Shown here piece after piece: positions 1-21,004 of a stretch of DNA of 38,226 nucleotides; the stretch's first letter is position 1; every line of letters starts with the position of its first letter. The position numbers were made by a program, and so were the translations under genes. The DNA comes from a virus: the IMG/VR virus record IMGVR_UViG_3300021090_000066, positions 1 to 38,226 of that record; one strand, given 5' to 3'. The notes under the pieces are model-generated. The model saw only the letters and a list, made by a program, of their open reading frames with translations, made no database searches and was not told the origin of the DNA.

Positions 1-75
1 CCACCCCGACCACGACCGCGACCACGACCGCGACCACGACCCCGACAACGACCCGATGTAGTTTGCGGTTATCAT
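1..75 (-). CDS. Small SWSR-repeat protein, 3' part beyond window
   Basis: An ATG at 75 is preceded by a GAGG Shine-Dalgarno about 12 bases upstream and opens a frame that is still open at the left edge. It reads MITANYIGSLSG followed by a tetrapeptide repeat, Ser-Trp-Ser-Arg. The DNA has a 12-base period. Short low-complexity repeat proteins occur in many phages, but I do not recognise a family here. The gene lies directly downstream of the hammerhead ribozyme, whose cleavage would leave a leader of about 30 bases before this start. The downstream extent is unknown because the window ends. Confidence 0.5.
   Translation of the reverse strand, partial: MITANYIGSLSGSWSRSWSRSWSGW
7..51. repeat. 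12-bp tandem repeat
   Basis: About three to four near-identical units of CGACCACGACCG, the last copies diverged. In the minus-strand gene that starts at 75 each unit encodes Ser-Trp-Ser-Arg or Ser-Trp-Ser-Gly. Confidence 0.75.
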
Positions 76-98
76 TTAGCTGGTCACCTCAGAGGATT

Positions 99-158
99 AT
101 TATCTCGACTCCCTCGCGGGAGTTTCGCCGGAGTCTCACCGGCTCATCAGGAAATTAT
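99..158 (-). ncRNA. Type I hammerhead ribozyme
   Basis: Read 5' to 3' on the minus strand, the catalytic core CUGAUGA is at 150..144. Stem II is GCCGG (143..139) with CCGGC (131..127), closing the 7-base loop UGAGACU. GAAA follows at 126..123. Stem III pairs ACUCCC (123..118) with GGGAGU (113..108) around a GCGA tetraloop. The cleavage triplet GUC is at 109..107, so the predicted cut is between 107 and 106. Stem I is formed by 158..151 and 106..99: five pairs including one G-U, an A-A mismatch, then two more pairs. Position 2.1 is C paired with G at 1.1, and 10.1-11.1 is G-C, as in the consensus. Both ends leave through stem I, which defines type I. The TAA stop of the upstream gene (157..155) lies inside stem I. 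Confidence 0.87.
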
Positions 159-6707: not shown

Positions 6708-8933
6708 CTAACGATAAAGTTGGCGTTTCCAATCATCGTAGATCATTTCGCGCGATCCGCGCCTTACTTCAACCGTCTTGCTCAGGGTATCCACTATCCA
6801 GATCCGCGCGTTCCCATCGTAAAAATAAATGCGGTGCGAATTATCATAGAACATAATGCGCGGATAATTTTGGCTCGAAGGGGTTTTGGTTGGAGTGAGC
6901 GTATTTGTAAAGGTGGGGCTGATGGTTTTCGTGGGCGTGATCGTCTTCGTGGGCGTGATCGTCTTCGTGGTGGTGATGGTCTTGGTTTCCGTAAAGGTCG
7001 GGCTGGCCGTGGACGTGAGCGTTATCGTTGGCGTGGGTGTATCGGTCGGGGTAATCGTAGAAGTAGGGGTATCCGTCGGCGTGGCGGTGGGCGTCACGGT
7101 CGAAGTATCCGTTGGTGTTCCCGTGAATGTTGGGGTTCCGGTCGGGCTGGCCGTTGATGTCGCAGTCGGAGTTCCAGTAAACGTAGGCGTGCCCGTGACC
7201 GTAGGTGTTCCGGTTGCCGTCGGCGTTGCAGTGTCGGTAGGTGTATCCGTAGCCGTTGGTGTTTCACTCTTTGTCGGCGTTGCCGTGGGTGTCGCGGTAT
7301 CCGTAGGCGTCGCCGTTGGAGTGTTGGTAGCGGGGGGCGGTTGGTAATATGCAACGATATAACATTGAGAAACAAGGAAACAGCCGCCAGGAGAACTGAC
7401 ATCGATTCCGAAACAAGACAGGTTGTTATTTATCTCAGAAACGGTCCACGCCGAGCCGGTGGCTGGACTATTGACATAATTGTGGCCGTAATTCTCGAAG
7501 CTTGTGGTAAGTGTTTGATTGCTGTTGTCTGTATAGGGAGTTCCGTTAATTGTTAATCTGGTGTTTGCGTAATCAAATAACCCATATTGATACATGGCAC
7601 GATAGAAAACGGAAACGCTTATGTTGGTCGCTCCAGCGGGAACAGAAAAGGGCGTTGGCCCTAAATTAAATGTATGATAGCCATTCTCGCAAATGTAAAT
7701 GTAGGCACCATCATCGGCCTCCGGGTAATCGGAAACGTAAGTGTAATAATAGCGGCTCGAAGATGGATCCTTGATCCAGGTTGGGTAGGAAGCACAATCG
7801 CCGTTCGGAATTCTAACTTGCGATTCGGACCAATTATGCGTGGCCGTGGCTGTGGGTGTTGATGTTACAGTAAACGTCGGGGTGGCCGTTTTGGTCGGTG
7901 TATGTGTTGAGGTCGTAGTCGGCGTCGCGGCGAAGGCGGTCTGGCTGACAATCAGGCTGTCGACATATGAATCCGGTGAAGTATAATTCCAGGTGCTATA
8001 CCAAGCAATTTCGCTATTGGCCGCGTTCAAAGTGGTTGGATAATTTATCCGCAGGCTGGTAGGTTCGATGTCCACAGAAGTATTGTCTGAGTAAATCTTG
8101 ATTGAAGTCCCGTCCGCGACGACCTTGATTGGATACTGCTGTCCCGAGTTGAGACCCGGCATGGATTGGGATGCAACCGTGGCAAATGCATTAAGCGTGG
8201 TGCTGTCCAAAAAAATACCGGGATTCGCGCCAACTTGGGAAAAATAGATGGCATAGCCCGTGCAAGAGGTCCCGGCCGGAGTCGCGCCCAACTCATGAGA
8301 GCCTAGAATTAATAGTTTCCCGCCACTCCAACTATATCCAGAAGTATAGTAACTTGCTGTCCAACGATATATCAAAGGTCCACCAGCCGGGGTTGCGTTT
8401 AAGTTGATATAGTCGCGCGGATAATAAGCGGTAGCTGACGTGCAAAGCAGGTCGAGTTTATTATTGTAGATGGCATTGTAGGCGCCGTTGTTCAGAACAT
8501 GCCAGATATCTCCGGTATTGTTTATCTCGGGTGTATGTACGTCCAGTTTGGTCCCGTTCGCGCCCGTAAATGTGTCGAATAATATTGTATTTGTTGACGA
8601 GCCCGTGGTGGCGGTGGGCGTCGCCGATGGCGTTGGTGTGGCGGTGGGCGTAGGAGTATCCGTTGGCGTCGCGGTAAATGTTGGCGTCTCGGTTGGAGTA
8701 TCGGTCGGTGTTTCAGTAAAAGTGGGCGTCGATGTAGGGGTATCGGTTGGCGTGGCGGTAAAGGTAGGAGTATCCGTCGGGCTTTCGGTTGGAGTCGCGG
8801 TTGGGGTAGGCGTATCCGTGGGTGTGTCTGTCGGGGTTTCCGTGAACGTTGGGGTGCCCGTCAGCGTATCCGCCAGAGCGGGCGCAGCCAGGGCCATCGC
8901 AATTAATAATCCGGCAATAAATTTACAGCGCAT
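6708..8933 (-). CDS. Secreted multidomain adhesin-like protein with TPT stalks
   Basis: A 741-residue protein with GGGGAGG before the ATG and a signal peptide ending APALA (cut after residue 21). Layout: a Thr-Pro-Thr repeat (about 24-110); a lectin-like beta-sandwich (about 118-335, opening [15 protein letters not shown] and ending YVDSLIVSQ); a short TPT linker (about 338-368); a second beta-rich domain with several Cys (about 370-535); a long TPT repeat (about 540-700); and a small C-terminal beta domain ([19 protein letters not shown]). Pro/Thr stalks of this kind space binding domains on secreted and cell-surface proteins. Position after the lysis genes would suit a tail fibre, but the signal peptide argues for export. 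No sortase or membrane anchor is visible. Confidence 0.7.
6870..7320. repeat. Thr-Pro-Thr coding repeat array (distal)
   Basis: Degenerate 6- and 12-base units encode TPTxTPTx in the 741-residue exported protein. A second array lies at about 8604..8864 and a short one at about 7827..7922. Such arrays change length easily by replication slippage. Confidence 0.8.
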
Positions 8934-11319: not shown

Positions 11320-11765
11320 TATTGGCCTTCTATTCCGGGCTCTACGCCGGGCATTTCAATGCGAGTTATCTGCCGGCCGTTCTCATCCAGCCCTATTTTT
11401 TGTAGGCCCTTAATCATTTCCTGGGCCTTTTGGATATAAAACTGGGCGGAATCGTTGTACCGCCATCCGCCCATTTCAGAGGCCTTCTGCCAGGCCTTCA
11501 CCGCGTAACCGTACCGGCCGGAGAGAAAATATTGAATCCCCTCCATACCCACCCTGTCGCCCGGCGTATCGCGGTAAGAGGCGACCAAGCGAGGCGCGGA
11601 CACCGCGGCCGATACCGGCGGGACGTATTGGCCGGCGGGGATCCTGGGAGCCGACTGGGCCGCGCTGGCCGAGGGCGCCAGCAGTCCCCTGCTCTTGGTT
11701 GGTTCTGTGGGCCCGGCTGCCTGTTTAATTTGCTCTTCGACGTTAGCGGGAACCCTGATAGTCAT
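11319..11765 (-). CDS. Small protein with TPR-like C-terminus
   Basis: A 148-residue protein. Residues 18-60 are low-complexity, Ala/Pro/Ser-rich. Residues about 75-118 (GIQYFLSGRYGYAVKAWQKA then YNDSAQFYIQKAQEMI) look like one and a half tetratricopeptide repeats. Its ATG overlaps the stop of the giant virion gene (ATGA), which suggests a structural or assembly role. Function unknown. Confidence 0.6.
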   Translation of the reverse strand: MTIRVPANVEEQIKQAAGPTEPTKSRGLLAPSASAAQSAPRIPAGQYVPPVSAAVSAPRLVASYRDTPGDRVGMEGIQYFLSGRYGYAVKAWQKASEMGGWRYNDSAQFYIQKAQEMIKGLQKIGLDENGRQITRIEMPGVEPGIEGQ

Positions 11766-14700
11766 TGTCGCTCCTTCGTTGGCCGGCGACGGTAGAAGTC
11801 GCGCGGTTCCAACTCCATATCTCCCTTTAGGGCGTCATAAGCGTTCCAAAACCAGGAATGAAATTGAGTAGGCCAGCCCTTCAGCAGGAACAAGGCCATC
11901 ATGCTTGGTTCAATGGTGCCGGCGAAAATATCGCCTTCTGCGGCCGCTTTCTTGCCGGCCGATACTGATTTTAGAATCTGTTCTCCCAGCGAAAGGATGG
12001 GCGCCGGCCGGTAGCCGTAGGACCGAAGCCCAAGAATGCGGTCCAGCGCCGCTCCGGCAATCTCGCGCGCGAACGGAAAGAAAGAAGTTCCATAAGAAAC
12101 CAGCGATTTAATCCAAAAATGCGACGAGCTCTCTTCGTCATCCTGGCGCGGCAGCTGGCCGGCCAGGACCGCGCTGGCATAGACGAACATCAGCCGCGAG
12201 GCCACGAATCCCACGAACCTCGGCACGTTTCTGATTGTGGGACTTTTTAATTTCTGCGCTTCTAGAATCCAGTTGTTGTATTCCACGTTCCAGAACGAAT
12301 AGAGCTTGGTGAATAGGGTTTCCATGTCGGTGCCGCGCAGGATTTTGGCCACGTCGTACTTTCTGCCCGAGCCGGTCATCCGGTTTATAAGTTTGTCGGC
12401 GTACTCTGCGGCCTCTTGCTCATTATGGCTGGAGTTCAGTTCCTTCGTATAGGCCTCGATCCAATGCGGAATATTGGTCATATCGTCCGAACCGCCCAGC
12501 AGCCCGATCATGAAATCCCAAAGGCCCTTTTTTCCGGTCTTTGAATTGTTCTTCAGTTCCTTCAGGGTCCACTCGGGTATGCTCCGCCGGTCGCGCATGA
12601 ATTGCGACCTTGACCAGACAAAATCCTGCATCTTGCGCGCCTCTGGGTGATTGAATGTCGCCTTGAGCCAATAATCCATGAGGCCCCGGCCGAGCATGGC
12701 TTTAGTCATATCCATCCAGCCCCAACCCTCTACCCTGCCGATGGACAGAAAGGGGTTGGCGAAGTTCTGCAGTATTACTCCGGCCTTGCCCAGCACCAGG
12801 GCGGCCGTCACGGATTTATTCAGGCGCCGAACCACTCGGCTCAGAACGTCCATAGCCATTCGTTCCGCCGACGAGCCGGTAGCAACGGATTTAATCCAGT
12901 TCTGAATCAAGCGGTACCCTTCCTCGCCGAGGTTACGCTTCACGGCGTCGACGAACTGCCGGCGGGCGGACAGGCGGCGCAGATCATAAACCAGTGGGCG
13001 GAAGGCTAAGTCGTGGATAATGTCGCGCAAATGCCGGTCGATGAGGGAAAGATCAAATGTCACGGCATACATGGCTCCGGTGCGGGCCTTGGTATGCCCG
13101 GTCTTGGTCACCGCTTTGTACGCCGGGTTCAGGTCAGTGTAGAGGGCGTCCGCGCTGATTTCGCGCTCGGCCGCGCGCTCGTTGTACCGGGGATCCACGC
13201 CAAGGGGATAATATCCGCCCTTCAGTTGCATCATTGAACCATCGGGCAGCGCAACCTCGAAGGGCACGGGCTCGACCTTTCCCGGCGCAAATCCGGTCAT
13301 ACTCTCGTGCAGTTCGGCAATCTTGGGCCAATATTGATTGATATGGTCCCAGATATTCTGCACGAATTGCCAATCGCGCCGGTTTAGGTATCGGCCGAGA
13401 ACTTCCATGACGTTTTTTTCGGTTTGCTCGGGCGGAGCAAGTCCCCAATCCCAATCCGGTTTAAATCCCACGGGCGGCGTGTTGAAAAGCCGATCGCGGT
13501 TTCCGGTGTTGCCCAAGTTTAGGGCCATAGCCAGAAGTTCGGCTTTGGTGATGGGATTTTCAGCCGTGGCGCCGAATTCCTTAATCATTAATTTCTTTTT
13601 AAATATCTCGTCGATGTCCTTTTGCTCGTAGGCGGACCATATTTTTATCAGCTTTTCCGCAGAATCGCGCATCAGCTTGCTCTCGTTATCCGCGGCCGCC
13701 CGCGTCGGCATTTCAAAAGCGTTTCGCCAGGCGCCGCGGTCGCGGCCGCCATCCAGCTGCTGCAGGATCGTGTCCAGCCGGCGCATGCTGTAGAAATAGC
13801 TGGCCAGATTGCCCTTGCCTCTTTCGCCCTGGGCTTTGAGAATCTTCGGAGAAATATTGGCATGCACGTTCACGTCCGCGGCCGTCGCCAGCTGCGTAAC
13901 CAGTCCGCTCAGATCGAAATTCTCGCTCATGGTATAAAGCCGATCCGCCATATTGGCCACGTGGAGAATGTTTTTCAGCGCGTTTTTAATATCGATCAGC
14001 CGGTCCATGGTGAGCATTCTGTAATTCATGGGCGTGCCCTCGACCATAATCCAGTCGGCGATGCTTAGGGGGCTTGCGTCCGCGTTGTTCAGGTCGGCGG
14101 CGAACAGCCCGGCCATGCGTTGCACATAGGCCATTAGGCTTTCTGTGCGAGCGAGGCGGTCATAATCCATACGGTGCCCGAGCCCGAAGCGCTGCAATAA
14201 TTCGGCCACTTGGTCGAAGGTTTGCTGGTCCTTCATGGATTCCTTACGCCGCCCGGCGATATCGCCGATTGTGGCAAGGGCCTCTTCCGCCTGGGCCTGC
14301 AACTTTCGCATGCCCAGGGCCAGGGTGTGATTTAGCAGCTGTTCTTGCTTGGCGGCCACGGCCGCGTCGTAATCTCCGCGGGCCACGGCCTGAGCCACCT
14401 TGACCGCGGCATTACGCTCGGCGGTGAAGAAGACCGTGCCGGTTTCAACGTCGCGCACGAGCGTATTGGCCAGGATTTCAGCAGCCTTAGCTTTGGCGAT
14501 ATCCGCTTCCATGCGCACCCGATCAATTGCGGCCTGGCGGCGCTTGGCAAAGAGAGACACGAGGGCCTTGGTTTCCACACTTGAAATCTCCGTCCCCATC
14601 TCGGCCAGCGCCTTATTGTAGGCTTGCTCGTCGAATTGCTTCAGACCGTACTTGGCCTCGATCTGGGCTTCGACCAATTCCTTTATGACGTCCGCCTTCT

Positions 14701-17700
14701 TGGGCAGGTCGGCGATCACCCTGGCCGCCTCTTCCGGGCCCGGGAAGTCATGGTTGCCGGCCACATCATTAAAGGCCTGATCTTGCTTGGGCGTGAATTC
14801 CTTGCGCTCGTAATATTTACGGGCAATTTCCCGGTACTTGGGGCCCAGGCGCTTTATCAGCTCGGACGTGGCCAGGTATTCGGGCTGGTTTTCAATTTCC
14901 CGGCGCGCGTCAATGGCAATCTGTTTGATATCGGCCGCCATTTGATCTTCTTCCGCCGGCGAGAGCGGTTGGGGCAGGTCCTTCAGAACCGCCTTTTCGG
15001 CCGCGCCGCGCAACCTAGTTGCCTCGGCTGGCGCGAGGCCACCGCGCTTAGCTAGAATTTTTTTAAGCGCCTCGCGCTCCAAGATTAGGATCTCAAGTTG
15101 CCGTTCGTTGTGAACCGCGTCTAGGGCGGCCGCGTGCATTTGCTCAGAGTTCATAAGGTCCGGGTAAAGCGCCGCAGAGCGGGCCCCGGCACGAGCCAGG
15201 GATTCTTCCTTAAGGCCGCGCGAGGCAATAAGTTGCTTGGCCATATCCTCGCCTGAATAGAAGTTGTTATTCTCGGCAAAATTCTCAAAGGCCAGGTCAT
15301 CGCGGCCGCCGGAGGCCGAGGCGAATTCCCCGGACAGGAATTTTTGAGCAGCCTTCTTGGCGTCCATGCCAAAGTATTCCTTGATCTGCGCGCCCGCAAC
15401 ATACAGAGGCTTAGTTTTAAGCTTTTCTTCTTCTTCGGCGGTCATCTTAGCGATGACCTTGGCGCTGTCGGCCTGGGCCCCGGCCGCCAGTTCCTTCATT
15501 TGCTCTTTCATTACCATGGCCACGGCCTGATCGTGCGCCTGCGCGCGCATGGTCACCAGCTGCTTACGAACGCCCGGGTCTATGCCCTGAATATCCAATT
15601 CCTTTTCCAGCGCCATATCCGCCGTGGCGGCCTTGATTTCTTCTTCGGAGGCCACCATGCGCGACATTATCCCACGGACTTCGGGCGATATTTCCGCGCG
15701 CCCGGCGCCGATATCCGAAACGGATTTATAGATTTCCACCAGCCAACGGCGGAACCTGGCGAATACACCCTCCAGCTCGCGCGTGGGCGCCTGCCCCTCG
15801 CGTAGGTAGGCCTCGAAGGTTGAAGCGAATTTCTCATGCTGATCAACGGTGAGCGCCTCACCCTCCTTGCCGCCGAGCCAACTGGTGATTTCCTTCCAGT
15901 CAGCCTGCAGGCCGGCATCGGCCCGGCCCTGCTTGACGTAATCAGCCACGGCGGTGAGCCAACCGTGCGCGGCCTCGTGCATGAAGGTTGAGGCATTGGC
16001 GGCTTTGAATGAGAGCGTGACCTTGCGGGTATTCTTATCAAATGCGCCCTGGGCGGCCTGAAAGAAGGATTTGCCCTGAAATCCCCTTCCCTCGGCAGCC
16101 CAGGACTTGACGGCTTCGGTGCCCGTGCCAATCACATCAAGAACCCTCGTTCCGTTATTGCTTAAAAATCCGGCCAGGTTTCGAACCACTTCATCGCCCA
16201 TGCTTCCGTTATTTACTATGATGGCGGCAGAGGCATTCGAAATAGAAAGGGCGCGGTAAAGGGCGTCCATGCGGCCCTTTGTCCGCAAAATGCCAGCTTC
16301 GGCCGCGTCCACAGGGACAAATGCCACGGGGTTATGTTTTGAATCCATAATGATGAGACCTGATTTGTTATCTGAAAAAGCGCCTGCCATCCGCAAGCCT
16401 TCCTGGACGTTGTTTAGGACCGGCCACAACTTTTTTTCATCGGCAAATACGCGTTCCACCACCGGGACGCTTGCGCCCTTCTGCGCCGCGCCCGTGACGC
16501 CTTCCCTTGTGGTATATTTTCCAGCCATCTCTACCGATGGTTCGAATTCCCAAACTCTACCTTCGCCCTTGCTCCCGCCGATTACAAATATGCCATGAGC
16601 CTGAATTTCGCTTCCCCGAAAAGAATTCGATAGGGCTTTATTTAATTCTAGGTCGCTTGCTGATGGCTTCGCCGACCCGCTTGGGTGGTTGTGGGCAAAC
16701 CAAATATTTGCAGCGCCTTTAATCCTGAAGGCCTCGGCGACGATGGTTGCCGGAAAGATCATTGTTTGATCGACGGTTCCTTTAAAGCCTCCGATTATTG
16801 CAAGGGGTTTGCCTTTGGCATCCGTAATCAGGGCATCCATGTGCTCAACGGCGTTCTTAGCCAGGTAAGCCATGGCCTGGGCGGCCTCTTCGGGCGTATT
16901 TACCTTCCCGACTCCGATCTGCCTGGTCCCTTCTTTTACGATTGCCGTTCGCGTCGCGTAGGTTCCTGGCGCGTCATTGCGGAATGGCTCCTTCGGGTTG
17001 CGCGGGCGCGGTGCAGCCGGCTCGTTGAAAATGTCCCTGGAATAATCGGTTCGGGGTTCGGTGACAACCGGCTTCGCATTGGGGGCGGCCTGGAAAAGCG
17101 GGAAGCCCTCGGACATGGCCGATTCGCGCATGGCCGGCGTGATATCGAGGGAGTGGACCTTCTCGTCTACGGGCTCTACGGGCTCGGCTTTATCAATAAA
17201 GGCCTGCGCTTGCTCACGTGAAGGGAAACTATCAAGGGGCTGAGCGTCATAAGCCTTGTCCCAAACTTGGTATGACGTTTCGGCGGCATTAAGATCGTCG
17301 GGCGTAATATATAAATCCGACTTGGGGTTCCCGGTCGTAATTGAAGTTTCGCCGACCCTGGCCCCAAATCGCTTGCCCAGCTTATTTGCGTAGTAAGGCA
17401 GGATTTTGTCGTAAAAGCCCTTCATGCCTTCACCGCCGACCTTAAGGTCAAGTCCGGAGTAGCGATGATCCATATCAGTTTGGCTTGCGATCTTTTCTGC
17501 TAAATCTTTCCCAACGACATTAGGCAATTCTGATGGCGAAAATGTCCCCGCCCAATGAATTCTAGAACCGGGAAGGATCATAGCAATTTCAAATTTGCCG
17601 TCATCTGTTTTTTTTGCAATAACCTTTTCAACCTGCTTGCTCAGGTTGTAGCGGCCGGCCTGTTGCTCTCCGGTGGTCCAAGCGATGCGGTCATACCCGT

Positions 17701-20700
17701 TTTCGGCCGCGTACCGGACCATGCGTTTCAGGGCCAGTTCGTGCCAGGTTTTCTTGAAGGGAGTATTGGGAATTCGATCCTCATGTCCGGTTAAATTCAT
17801 AGTTTGTTCAAGATATCTATTTGCCTTTTCTTCTGATTTATGAGCAAATCCTATTTTTTGTCCATCCGGGCCGATTACTTGCCATCCATCATTTTGTTTT
17901 TCAATCCTATATTCCTTGGTTCTATCTTTGTATCCCTGTTCCCTGCCCTTCTGGTGCCAGTCGCTTTGCACTTCTTCCAGGAAGAGCACCTTCTTGCCCT
18001 CTGCGTCCACGCGGTCATTGAAGCGGACGTGGGCCAGGATATTGGGCTCGTCGAAATGCGAGGAGCGAAATTGATTTAGCGATTCCCCATCGCGTTGTTT
18101 AACAAGGCCATAAAATTCATCGTCTACCCCGGGGTTTTTTTTCTTTTCTTCCTGCGTCATATTTGCAATTTCAGATAGCCTTTTGGCTATTTTATCTTTA
18201 TCTATCCTTTCCGGTAACGTCAGCAGCAGTTCGCGGTAATTCTGGCCGCCGGGGAGTTGGTAAGATGAAAATTTGGTTTCGTCATTTTCGATGTTTTGCC
18301 GTATTTTTTCATTCAAACTATCAAGTCGCGAACGCAATTCGGGAGTTGTAGTGAATACCGTTTCCCCACGTCTTACTATTCCATCGGCCAAATGATCCCG
18401 CTGCCTAATTAAACTGTCGTATTCCTCGGCGCTCAATTTATGCGGCTTGTTTTGGCCTTTTTCTACTTCCCGTATTTGCACATTGTTCGTGCGGATGAAG
18501 TCGAGCATCTCCTGCTTGCTGACCTTCTGCTTGCCTGCAAGGAAGTCATCGAGGCCCAGCCACTCTATTTCCTCCTCCTTCACGCCAGCGCCAGCCAATA
18601 GGCCCTTGATCGAATCGGCCGGCGCGGAATTGGGCATTTTGTCGGTGATGGCACGCTCAGCCTTTGAATAGAATATGGACGCCGCCGGCGTTGCCTGGAA
18701 TAGATTTTTAAATCTGTCCAGCAAATAGCCTTCACCCTGGGGCGGGACGAGATCCAGCAGGTCGGCCTTGCTGACCGTTTTTTTGCCCTGGAGGAATTTA
18801 TCGAGCCCTACGGCCTTCATATCGGTCTCGCGGGCCCCGGCCGCGGCCAGGATGGGCCGCACCGCCTCGGCCTCGATGCTGGCCGGCATCCGTTCCTTAA
18901 TCGCCCTGTCCAACACCGCCATGCCTTCGGTCTGGCTCATGGCGCCGGGTGCAATCTGCAGGTTTTCCACGCCGACGATCTGCGAAACCATATCCCGTGC
19001 CACCTGGTCCGGCGTGCCCTTCACGCGCGCGGCCGTGGCCGTGGCCATGCTGGCAAATAATTCAGCCGACGCCTTGGCCTCTTTTGGGGCCATGCCGGCG
19101 GACTCAAGTTCGGCTTGCTTCTCCTTGGCGATGGTGTCCTTGATTTCGGCCCAACCCGGGTTGGTATCGACGGCCTTCTTAGTTTCGGCTTCGAATTGCT
19201 CCTGATAATAAATCGCCTGGTCATCCTTCTGCCGCTGGGTCAGATCGTCCGGAGAAAATTTGATATCCCGGGCGAAATCCTGGTAAATCAGGTTTCCGGT
19301 GGCCTTGCTCACGGAGTGAGAATTGGCAATCCATTGTGCCATGGGAATTTGGATGTCGCCGCCGGCGCTTTGAGCGGCCTGATAGAGTTGAGTAATTCCA
19401 AGGTCGGACGCCAGAACGGCCGGATCCACCTGCTTGCTTTCCGCGTAGGACTTGAAGGCTGCGGCGGGAATATAGACGCTTTCCACCGGCCCGTCTTTGG
19501 TCAGCTGGCTGACATAATCCTGGTAGGAGGCCGGCATCCGCGGAAGAAGCTTGGATTTATCAGCTGAATCTCCCATGGTTCGGTAAAGCTTTTCGGCCGC
19601 ATCCGCGCGCTGCGCCTGGGCTCCCAATCGGTTCAGATCGAAGGCCAGGCGCCCCACGCGCCCGGGCGCTCCCATAAGAGCCATCACCGGGATTGCTTCA
19701 AGGAAGCCCCTGGATGTTTCTGAAACAATTGCACCGGCGGGCGCGGCTTCGAATGGCTGGCCGGAAGCCGCTTTGGCCACTTCTGCGCCGGTCAGGGCGG
19801 TTGCGGTCATGCCCGCCATGCCGGCGGCGCCCTGCAGAGTATGCGGGATCCACGTTTTTGCGAAGGTGGCCAGTGCCTTGCCCGCGCTTAGCTTTTCAAG
19901 TGCCGCGGGCGCGGCCTTTGCAAGAAAGGATTGCAGGAATTTCTGCGAGCCCGGAATGCTCTTCAGGATTGCGTTGATCGGCAACATGCCGAATCCAGCC
20001 TGGACCGCACCCGAAAGAAGCGCCGTTGTTTTCAATATATCGTCGGCGATTGGCTGGCCTTGCTTATCGCGCAACTGCCCGTAAGATTGGTAGGCCTGCC
20101 CGGCAAAGACCTTGAAGTTGTACCAGGCCGCACCACCCAAGGCGCCTATTCCGTATGCAGCGGGAATGGCCAGCGGCGCGGCGGGCCCCGCGGCCGCGGC
20201 CGCCAGCCCCAGGGGAACACCGTACTTGACGCCCTCGGCCGCGGCTCCGGCCAGTAGGGGCGCCATCTGGGCGCTGCCTGATAGGGCGAAGGCCGGAACA
20301 TCGGCCAGGGCTTCCATTTTAGGAAGTGAGGGTTCCAATTCCAAAATCCTTGAATTGACATATTCCAAGCGCGCATCATCGCCGGGCCGCGACTGGCCTA
20401 CCATTCGGTTCCAATTTATGATTCCTTGCTCCTGGCTCAGGACCCCGCTCTCATAGGACGACCGGATGATCTTGACCGCGGACTCCCCAGCCCCGCGCAT
20501 CAAGCTTTGGACGTACCGCTCGCGCGCCACCGGATCCACGAGCATGGGCAAAACGGAATTTGCATTCTGGGCAATTAGGCTATGGGCGCTGAGGTTTTCC
20601 AGGTCATCATGCGAAACGGACATATTCCTGGGGTTGGAAAGGAAGGCCGCAAGTTCCGGGTGCCGTTCGGTAATTTCCTTCAACTGGCCTGGCTTCGGAG

Positions 20701-21004
20701 CGGATGCGGCCGCCTGGACGGCCGAAAGGTTCGCTTCGACAAAATGCTCATCGGCTCCGGCTTGGGAAGCAAGGCCCATGATCTTGGCGGCCTGGTCGGG
20801 ATCGTTTACGGGAATGGCTTGGAAGGAATCCTGCAGGGATGGTGCGACCGGATCATCGCCTGGAATGGTCGCCAAAGCTCTATCAAGGCCCGAATTTACG
20901 CCGCCGGCGGGTATGGGCTGGTCGATTGGCTGGGGGGGCGCTACCACCCCACCACCAGAGTCATCCGGAAGGGAATTTAAGGCCTCTTCGAGGCTGGCAG
21001 CCAT
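11762..21004 (-). CDS. Giant internal virion protein with JAB and HExxH domains
   Basis: At 3,080 residues this is more than twice T7 gp16 and occupies the same position. N-terminal residues about 240-430 are hydrophobic and Ala/Gly-rich, suited to forming a membrane channel during ejection. A degenerate duplicated module lies at about 690-745 and 775-835 (GLDKFLQGKKTVSK and GLDDFLAGKQKVSK). A conserved polyvalent-protein domain follows at about 880-1290 with EEVQSDWH at 1010. A RadC-like JAB domain at about 1390-1480 has HNHPSG at 1438-1443 and SASD ending at Asp1451. A metallopeptidase-like motif HEAAH is at 1676-1680. Long helical stretches fill 1770-2300 and a large C-terminal domain ends the protein. 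The start overlaps the upstream stop (TAATG). Probable role: ejection of DNA with enzymes delivered into the host. Confidence 0.82.
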   Translation of the reverse strand: MAASLEEALNSLPDDSGGGVVAPPQPIDQPIPAGGVNSGLDRALATIPGDDPVAPSLQDSFQAIPVNDPDQAAKIMGLASQAGADEHFVEANLSAVQAAASAPKPGQLKEITERHPELAAFLSNPRNMSVSHDDLENLSAHSLIAQNANSVLPMLVDPVARERYVQSLMRGAGESAVKIIRSSYESGVLSQEQGIINWNRMVGQSRPGDDARLEYVNSRILELEPSLPKMEALADVPAFALSGSAQMAPLLAGAAAEGVKYGVPLGLAAAAAGPAAPLAIPAAYGIGALGGAAWYNFKVFAGQAYQSYGQLRDKQGQPIADDILKTTALLSGAVQAGFGMLPINAILKSIPGSQKFLQSFLAKAAPAALEKLSAGKALATFAKTWIPHTLQGAAGMAGMTATALTGAEVAKAASGQPFEAAPAGAIVSETSRGFLEAIPVMALMGAPGRVGRLAFDLNRLGAQAQRADAAEKLYRTMGDSADKSKLLPRMPASYQDYVSQLTKDGPVESVYIPAAAFKSYAESKQVDPAVLASDLGITQLYQAAQSAGGDIQIPMAQWIANSHSVSKATGNLIYQDFARDIKFSPDDLTQRQKDDQAIYYQEQFEAETKKAVDTNPGWAEIKDTIAKEKQAELESAGMAPKEAKASAELFASMATATAARVKGTPDQVARDMVSQIVGVENLQIAPGAMSQTEGMAVLDRAIKERMPASIEAEAVRPILAAAGARETDMKAVGLDKFLQGKKTVSKADLLDLVPPQGEGYLLDRFKNLFQATPAASIFYSKAERAITDKMPNSAPADSIKGLLAGAGVKEEEIEWLGLDDFLAGKQKVSKQEMLDFIRTNNVQIREVEKGQNKPHKLSAEEYDSLIRQRDHLADGIVRRGETVFTTTPELRSRLDSLNEKIRQNIENDETKFSSYQLPGGQNYRELLLTLPERIDKDKIAKRLSEIANMTQEEKKKNPGVDDEFYGLVKQRDGESLNQFRSSHFDEPNILAHVRFNDRVDAEGKKVLFLEEVQSDWHQKGREQGYKDRTKEYRIEKQNDGWQVIGPDGQKIGFAHKSEEKANRYLEQTMNLTGHEDRIPNTPFKKTWHELALKRMVRYAAENGYDRIAWTTGEQQAGRYNLSKQVEKVIAKKTDDGKFEIAMILPGSRIHWAGTFSPSELPNVVGKDLAEKIASQTDMDHRYSGLDLKVGGEGMKGFYDKILPYYANKLGKRFGARVGETSITTGNPKSDLYITPDDLNAAETSYQVWDKAYDAQPLDSFPSREQAQAFIDKAEPVEPVDEKVHSLDITPAMRESAMSEGFPLFQAAPNAKPVVTEPRTDYSRDIFNEPAAPRPRNPKEPFRNDAPGTYATRTAIVKEGTRQIGVGKVNTPEEAAQAMAYLAKNAVEHMDALITDAKGKPLAIIGGFKGTVDQTMIFPATIVAEAFRIKGAANIWFAHNHPSGSAKPSASDLELNKALSNSFRGSEIQAHGIFVIGGSKGEGRVWEFEPSVEMAGKYTTREGVTGAAQKGASVPVVERVFADEKKLWPVLNNVQEGLRMAGAFSDNKSGLIIMDSKHNPVAFVPVDAAEAGILRTKGRMDALYRALSISNASAAIIVNNGSMGDEVVRNLAGFLSNNGTRVLDVIGTGTEAVKSWAAEGRGFQGKSFFQAAQGAFDKNTRKVTLSFKAANASTFMHEAAHGWLTAVADYVKQGRADAGLQADWKEITSWLGGKEGEALTVDQHEKFASTFEAYLREGQAPTRELEGVFARFRRWLVEIYKSVSDIGAGRAEISPEVRGIMSRMVASEEEIKAATADMALEKELDIQGIDPGVRKQLVTMRAQAHDQAVAMVMKEQMKELAAGAQADSAKVIAKMTAEEEEKLKTKPLYVAGAQIKEYFGMDAKKAAQKFLSGEFASASGGRDDLAFENFAENNNFYSGEDMAKQLIASRGLKEESLARAGARSAALYPDLMNSEQMHAAALDAVHNERQLEILILEREALKKILAKRGGLAPAEATRLRGAAEKAVLKDLPQPLSPAEEDQMAADIKQIAIDARREIENQPEYLATSELIKRLGPKYREIARKYYERKEFTPKQDQAFNDVAGNHDFPGPEEAARVIADLPKKADVIKELVEAQIEAKYGLKQFDEQAYNKALAEMGTEISSVETKALVSLFAKRRQAAIDRVRMEADIAKAKAAEILANTLVRDVETGTVFFTAERNAAVKVAQAVARGDYDAAVAAKQEQLLNHTLALGMRKLQAQAEEALATIGDIAGRRKESMKDQQTFDQVAELLQRFGLGHRMDYDRLARTESLMAYVQRMAGLFAADLNNADASPLSIADWIMVEGTPMNYRMLTMDRLIDIKNALKNILHVANMADRLYTMSENFDLSGLVTQLATAADVNVHANISPKILKAQGERGKGNLASYFYSMRRLDTILQQLDGGRDRGAWRNAFEMPTRAAADNESKLMRDSAEKLIKIWSAYEQKDIDEIFKKKLMIKEFGATAENPITKAELLAMALNLGNTGNRDRLFNTPPVGFKPDWDWGLAPPEQTEKNVMEVLGRYLNRRDWQFVQNIWDHINQYWPKIAELHESMTGFAPGKVEPVPFEVALPDGSMMQLKGGYYPLGVDPRYNERAAEREISADALYTDLNPAYKAVTKTGHTKARTGAMYAVTFDLSLIDRHLRDIIHDLAFRPLVYDLRRLSARRQFVDAVKRNLGEEGYRLIQNWIKSVATGSSAERMAMDVLSRVVRRLNKSVTAALVLGKAGVILQNFANPFLSIGRVEGWGWMDMTKAMLGRGLMDYWLKATFNHPEARKMQDFVWSRSQFMRDRRSIPEWTLKELKNNSKTGKKGLWDFMIGLLGGSDDMTNIPHWIEAYTKELNSSHNEQEAAEYADKLINRMTGSGRKYDVAKILRGTDMETLFTKLYSFWNVEYNNWILEAQKLKSPTIRNVPRFVGFVASRLMFVYASAVLAGQLPRQDDEESSSHFWIKSLVSYGTSFFPFAREIAGAALDRILGLRSYGYRPAPILSLGEQILKSVSAGKKAAAEGDIFAGTIEPSMMALFLLKGWPTQFHSWFWNAYDALKGDMELEPRDFYRRRPTKERQ

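Follow-up and report, generated by a model that had tools for sequence, protein, structure and literature searches.

A probable type I hammerhead ribozyme between two small phage genes, and the position of phage hammerheads relative to stop codons and leaders

Hammerhead ribozymes are already known as a kind from phage genomes (Perreault et al. 2011, PMC3088659), and the element described here is a further copy. According to that study, tandem bacterial hammerheads self-cleave in vitro and the Agrobacterium ribozymes do so in E. coli too, while 4 of 18 hammerheads matching the consensus were inactive in vitro. It was proposed there that long phage transcripts are cut into mRNAs the length of an operon or a gene; the 2011 study did not settle what hammerheads do in phages. 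For the hammerhead of the haloviruses HF1 and HF2 (HHphage), the 5' end of a transcript was mapped within three nucleotides of the cut (PMC3088659). An active hammerhead has also been described from the mouse gut, where the rate of cleavage was 0.3 per min in 0.3 mM Mg2+ (PMC7151607).

The window, by which we mean the whole stretch of DNA that was analysed, comprises positions 1 to 38,226 of the viral record IMGVR_UViG_3300021090_000066. Its minus strand contains a stretch that reads AATAATTTC CTGATGAG CCGGTGAGACTCCGG CGAAAC TCCC GCGA GGGA GTC GAGATAATAATCC, and the features assigned to this stretch and its surroundings are listed in Table 1. The core contains CUGAUGA, which agrees with the consensus CUGANGA, along with GAAA, an A15.1-U16.1 pair (A123-U108) and C107 at position H17 of the GUC cleavage triplet (109..107). 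Stem I consists of 5 bp, including one G-U pair, with C2.1-G1.1 at 151-106. Stem II pairs 143..139 with 131..127 (G10.1-C11.1 at 143-127) around the loop at 138..132, and stem III pairs 123..118 with 113..108 around the tetraloop at 117..114. The 3 helices, of 5, 5 and 6 bp, show covariation in the related set, and the topology is that of type I, in that stem I is open while loops close stems II and III.

Table 1. Features on the minus strand of the window in the region of the ribozyme
Feature	Position	Strand	Basis
Upstream small gene ('IGKK'), 97 aa	155..448	-	ORF; A155 of the stop UAA (157..155) is also in stem I
A(-6), second base of the UAA stop	156..156	-	Invariant in 88/88 listed subclass hammerheads
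Type I hammerhead ribozyme, stem I to stem I	102..155	-	Covariance model R1 (window excluded) and structural descriptor
Stem I 5' strand AUUUC, paired to 106..102 GAGAU	151..155	-	Sequence
Catalytic core CUGAUGA	144..150	-	Sequence
Stem II GCCGG/CCGGC with 7-nt loop UGAGACU	127..143	-	Loop matches subclass consensus YGMGAYY
Catalytic core GAAA	123..126	-	Sequence
Stem III ACUCCC/GGGAGU with GCGA (GNRA) tetraloop	108..123	-	Sequence and fold
Predicted cleavage, C107 (2',3'-cyclic phosphate) / G106 (5'-OH)	106..107	-	Deduced from the hammerhead fold
Stem I 3' strand GAGAU	102..106	-	Sequence
31-nt leader of the downstream message, ribosome binding site GAGGUGA at 90..84	76..106	-	Sequence
Downstream ORF (MITANYIGSLSGSWSRSWSRSWSGW...), (TCGNGG)n repeat, truncated by the contig end	1..75	-	Sequence; like the repeat in L005

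Folding the 79-nt stretch in isolation gave the hammerhead as the form of minimum energy, with a z-score that on its own is modest (-1.6). Stem I is weak: only 6 of the 88 listed members of the subclass described below, the window included, were equally weak or weaker. The probability of stem I was low in context according to pairing models that do not include tertiary contacts, and in longer context this applied to the whole subclass. An outer extension of stem I was not clearly above shuffles, with 75 of 200 shuffled partners reaching the observed value, and the same was true of a pseudoknot between loop II and the 3' tail (21 of 200). In a longer fold, an alternative helix formed across the cut site between CUCGAC in the upstream gene and GUCGAG, which we regard as a coincidence because nearly the same bases are present in the gene of L003, a locus that has no hammerhead.

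The bare pattern CTGATGA..CGAAA..GTC occurred once in the window, as compared to 0.04 occurrences expected from shuffles. For the full descriptor with all three stems relaxed the chance expectation was 0.004 per window, and no match with the observed stem lengths was obtained in 40 Mb of simulated sequence. Furthermore, a covariance model, R1, was built from 64 diverse phage hammerheads from which the window was left out. In a search of 128 kb, the model recovered the window at 157..100 with 49.6 bits and an E-value of 1.2e-13, a rough figure owing to the short calibration, and gave no further significant match. Thus, a sequence-and-structure profile derived from independent members recognizes the window. 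Compensatory changes were present in 10 of the 13 pairs of R1; since the 64 members had been collected by their exact match to the core, and stem filters had played a part for them as for the window, much of the score comes from the core and some of the covariation was selected for. These results bear out the first-pass annotation, which had described a type I hammerhead with a complete core, three stems and a GNRA-capped stem III; the element spans 155..102 on the minus strand.

That annotation had also proposed a check against the Rfam hammerhead models. The scan produced no match to the hammerhead at gathering thresholds, and the gathering score of RF00163 (Hammerhead_1) was not reached. 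The highest Rfam score at this position, 20.2 bits for RF03152 (RAGATH-1), was far below the gathering score of 56.3. RF02276 (Hammerhead_II), which demands an open stem II and not a closed one as in the window, gave 19.5 bits against a gathering score of 37. However, in a control of 14 motif-bearing viral loci, each with a full hammerhead, Rfam reported a single hammerhead, so the negative outcome says little and has no force as a refutation of the ribozyme. It was also noted that the type I model RF00163, at its gathering score, missed nearly all the phage hammerheads in these 14 loci. Because RF00163 is insensitive to the type I forms of phages, the element is classified here as a hammerhead but not as a member of that model. 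More generally, the Rfam hammerhead models overlook most phage copies at their curated thresholds.

The weak stem I and the Rfam scores below threshold would be compatible with a chance look-alike or a dead remnant that does not cleave. We consider this very unlikely in view of the expectation of 0.004 per window even with relaxed stems, the E-value, the complete core with all subclass features, and the failure of Rfam to detect nearly all such phage hammerheads. The element is very probably a genuine, active hammerhead.

To place the element among its relatives, viral contigs were scanned with the core and one stem III sequence. This identified 48 stretches, nearly all of which contained good stems I and II although the pattern demanded neither. 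Further patterns were used, including the loop II type of the window (YGMGAYY) with no requirement for stems I and III, and the counts that follow refer to the matches listed. Across the fetched loci there were at least 135 matches to YGMGAYY, at least 124 of which also had stems I and III, and at least 88 were distinct. Among the 88 distinct subclass members listed, 78 had a stem I of exactly 5 bp and all 88 had an A at position -6. By its sequence, the window belongs to this large subclass, characterized by 5-bp stems I and II, a 7-nt YGMGAYY loop II and the invariant A(-6), and it contains every one of these features. The same pattern was found in 23 stretches in 257 Gb of cellular genomes, including Legionella, Nitrosotalea and Bathyarchaeota, which indicates that the subclass is mainly viral. 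Members of the subclass occur in 7 contigs binned as Nitrosotalea and other Thaumarchaeota or as Bathyarchaeota. In 5 phage loci, several hammerheads were located a few kilobases apart at successive gene junctions.

The gene upstream of the ribozyme, 'IGKK', had no match in PHROG or Pfam, but 4 relatives with 59% to 60% identity were identified in other phage contigs. None of the 4 is followed by a hammerhead, and none was detected in phages related by their terminase, several records of which are short. No close relative was found to carry the ribozyme copy of the window, and conservation of the locus therefore offers no support. The relative in L005 has the identical bases at its end (AACAAAAATAAT); a short spacer and a hexamer repeat of the same type come next, without a ribozyme. 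The ribozyme was thus either gained in the window or lost in L005, and does not belong to a fixed gene pair. Nor was a hammerhead detected in 80 loci that carry this hexamer repeat. The suggestion that the ribozyme is tied to an IGKK-type gene and a repeat gene is accordingly rejected, there being no specific pairing with either (0 of 4 gene relatives, 0 of 80 repeat loci). The two genes are called early on the strength of the adjacent replication and integration genes only.

A low-complexity hexamer ORF is located behind the 'IGKK' gene in the window (1..75, minus strand), in L005 (3265..3415) and in L003 and L004 (after 3285). The hexamer is (TCGNGG)n, read as S-W/R/G, in the window and in L005, both of which end within the repeat, and (GGAGCN)n, read as G-A, in L003 and L004, such that the varying base occupies different codon positions in the 2 types. 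Arrays of (NGGTCG)n are common in phage contigs, with at least 120 stretches; their variable position holds T, G or C, and A only rarely. Several of these arrays lie inside a small gene with the N-terminus M-x(5)-L-x(3)-GY/F(D/E) followed by S-W/R/G repeats. Elsewhere in the window, which resembles a 38-kb podovirus contig, a single ORF of 3,080 amino acids (11762..21004, minus strand) perhaps encodes a giant internal virion protein, and an ORF of 741 amino acids (6708..8933, minus strand) with long T-P-T tracts near both ends perhaps encodes a surface or fibre protein.

The patchy distribution, the absence behind the 'IGKK' relatives and the variety of adjacent genes could point to a selfish element or a passenger, moving from one phage gene junction to another with no benefit to the phage; PMC3088659 states that self-cleaving ribozymes often have ties to selfish elements. 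This reading seems quite improbable to us, given that we saw neither a mobility gene nor a flanking repeat associated with the ribozyme and that both position and strand are strongly constrained, as described below.

The stop codon of the upstream gene had been placed within stem I. Its last base, A155, is indeed inside the stem, whereas the other two lie outside the 5-bp helix, with A156, which is A(-6), adjoining it. The distance from the cut to the next gene, given earlier as 30 bases, is 31 nt when counted from 106 to the ATG at 75..73. As features, the overlap with the stop codon and the short leader are nevertheless real and hold for phage hammerheads as a rule. When open frames of 80 codons or more were taken upstream as stand-ins for annotated genes, a stop was located at -9 to +3 of CUGAUGA in 151 of the 197 assessable phage hammerheads, compared to 125 of 1,230 sites drawn at random from the contigs concerned and 5 of 40 sites on the opposite strand. 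The stop fell inside stem I or bordered on it in 115 cases, and 36 used a UGA of CUGAUGA itself. The next start codon, with a ribosome binding site, was located 20 to 42 nt past the cut for 145 of 278 hammerheads (mode 26 to 27 nt), as opposed to 191 of 5,317 random sites (3.6%) and 2 of 278 antisense sites. Related contigs are not fully independent in these counts. The corresponding values in the window are a stop at -7 and a leader of 31 nt.

Both the overlap with the stop codon and the short leader fit the processing of polycistronic mRNA. We consider it likely that the element is a self-cleaving type I hammerhead that splits a polycistronic transcript at the point where two small phage genes of the same orientation meet. 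After passage of the RNA polymerase, the RNA would fold and cut itself after C107. The upstream message would then end directly at its stop codon in the hairpins of stems II and III with a 2',3'-cyclic phosphate, and the downstream message would start with a 5'-OH 31 nt before the AUG, with its ribosome binding site free. The polycistronic phage transcript would in this manner be split into two messages with independent decay and translation. It is established that 3' exonucleases are slowed by hairpins at 3' ends, and that decay dependent on a 5' monophosphate acts poorly on a 5'-OH. The motif, its subclass, its location between the stop codon and the next ribosome binding site and the recurrence of this order in many phages are observed, and cleavage in the window, the effects on stability and any timing by ribosomes are what we infer. 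The genes that flank phage hammerheads are diverse and mostly unnamed, those with names being anti-restriction, RNA polymerase, primase and ATPase genes, as expected of a general processing device. No names of structural genes were listed among the flanking families, though most of the families are unnamed.

Alternatively, the ribozyme might serve to form or stabilize the 3' end of the upstream message, replacing a terminator with a hairpin-capped end, in which case the downstream gene would be incidental. Stems II and III would stay on the upstream product directly past the stop codon, and a scan for terminators at this site yielded no more than shuffles did, as was also the case for promoters. 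Yet, the next start codon is likewise held at a set distance of 20 to 42 nt from the cut, which argues that the downstream side matters too, and we judge this alternative unlikely.

A compatible addition to the processing role is a switch timed by translation. Given the known footprint of a ribosome, the distance over which termination would occlude the RNA can be deduced. While terminating at UAA 157..155, a ribosome would cover the CUGAUGA strand, so that the cut would occur only between ribosomes or after translation has ceased, and cleavage would report on or shut off translation of the upstream gene. The placement of stops at stem I or the core (151/197) is consistent with such timing, as is the finding that the stop codons in the subclass are mostly made from bases around the invariant A(-6) or are the UGA of CUGAUGA. 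Near-zero spacing would, however, also arise in compact genomes and from a motif with many stop triplets. In gene pairs without hammerheads in the same loci, the tightest 13-nt interval contained 37% of the stops, compared to 77% at hammerheads, suggesting that gene packing explains only part of the overlap. The overlap is no proof of coupling, because the motif itself holds stop triplets and a gene that enters it must end there. Ribosome-delayed cleavage is plausible as such, while a switch of this kind in the window is a possibility that we hold with some doubt. Equally tentative is the broader idea that type I hammerheads of phages are a general punctuation, in which the conserved UAA at A(-6) or the UGA of CUGAUGA is the stop codon, termination is mechanically coupled to self-cleavage and the cut sets a leader of about 27 nt.

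The strict and strand-specific order in many phages, with a stop in or at the ribozyme followed by the cut, a short leader and a ribosome binding site, suggests a job that can be tested, namely that multigene messages are cut where genes end, and a likewise testable tie to translation. In the open-access literature, which provides weak evidence of absence, we found no report of an overlap between stop codons and hammerheads or of a general arrangement of stop, ribozyme and leader such as the sequences suggest. The main text of PMC3088659 does not describe the overlap or contain the term 'stop codon', and we found no mention there of a set leader length.

Among the known systems, the bacterial and prophage hammerheads of Perreault et al. 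(PMC3088659; RF00163) have in common with the window the core, three stems, an open stem I, a location between phage genes and the proposed role in cutting transcripts, but the copy in the window is below the Rfam threshold. The HF1/HF2 hammerhead (PMC3088659) is similarly a viral hammerhead just upstream of an early gene, although it has a variant core, is located 13 nt from the start codon and belongs to a virus of archaea. The theta ribozymes of gut phages (PMC10879173) are also self-cleaving and process phage transcripts, but they have an HDV-like fold and are often located beside tRNAs and not between protein genes. The mouse gut hammerhead (PMC7151607), which is active and structurally close to the one described here, shares with the window the CUGAUGAG core, a 5-bp inner stem I after UAA, GGUGAGA in loop II and GUC, whereas its stem II and stem III loops are different and it was described there as a pseudoknotted type II hammerhead.
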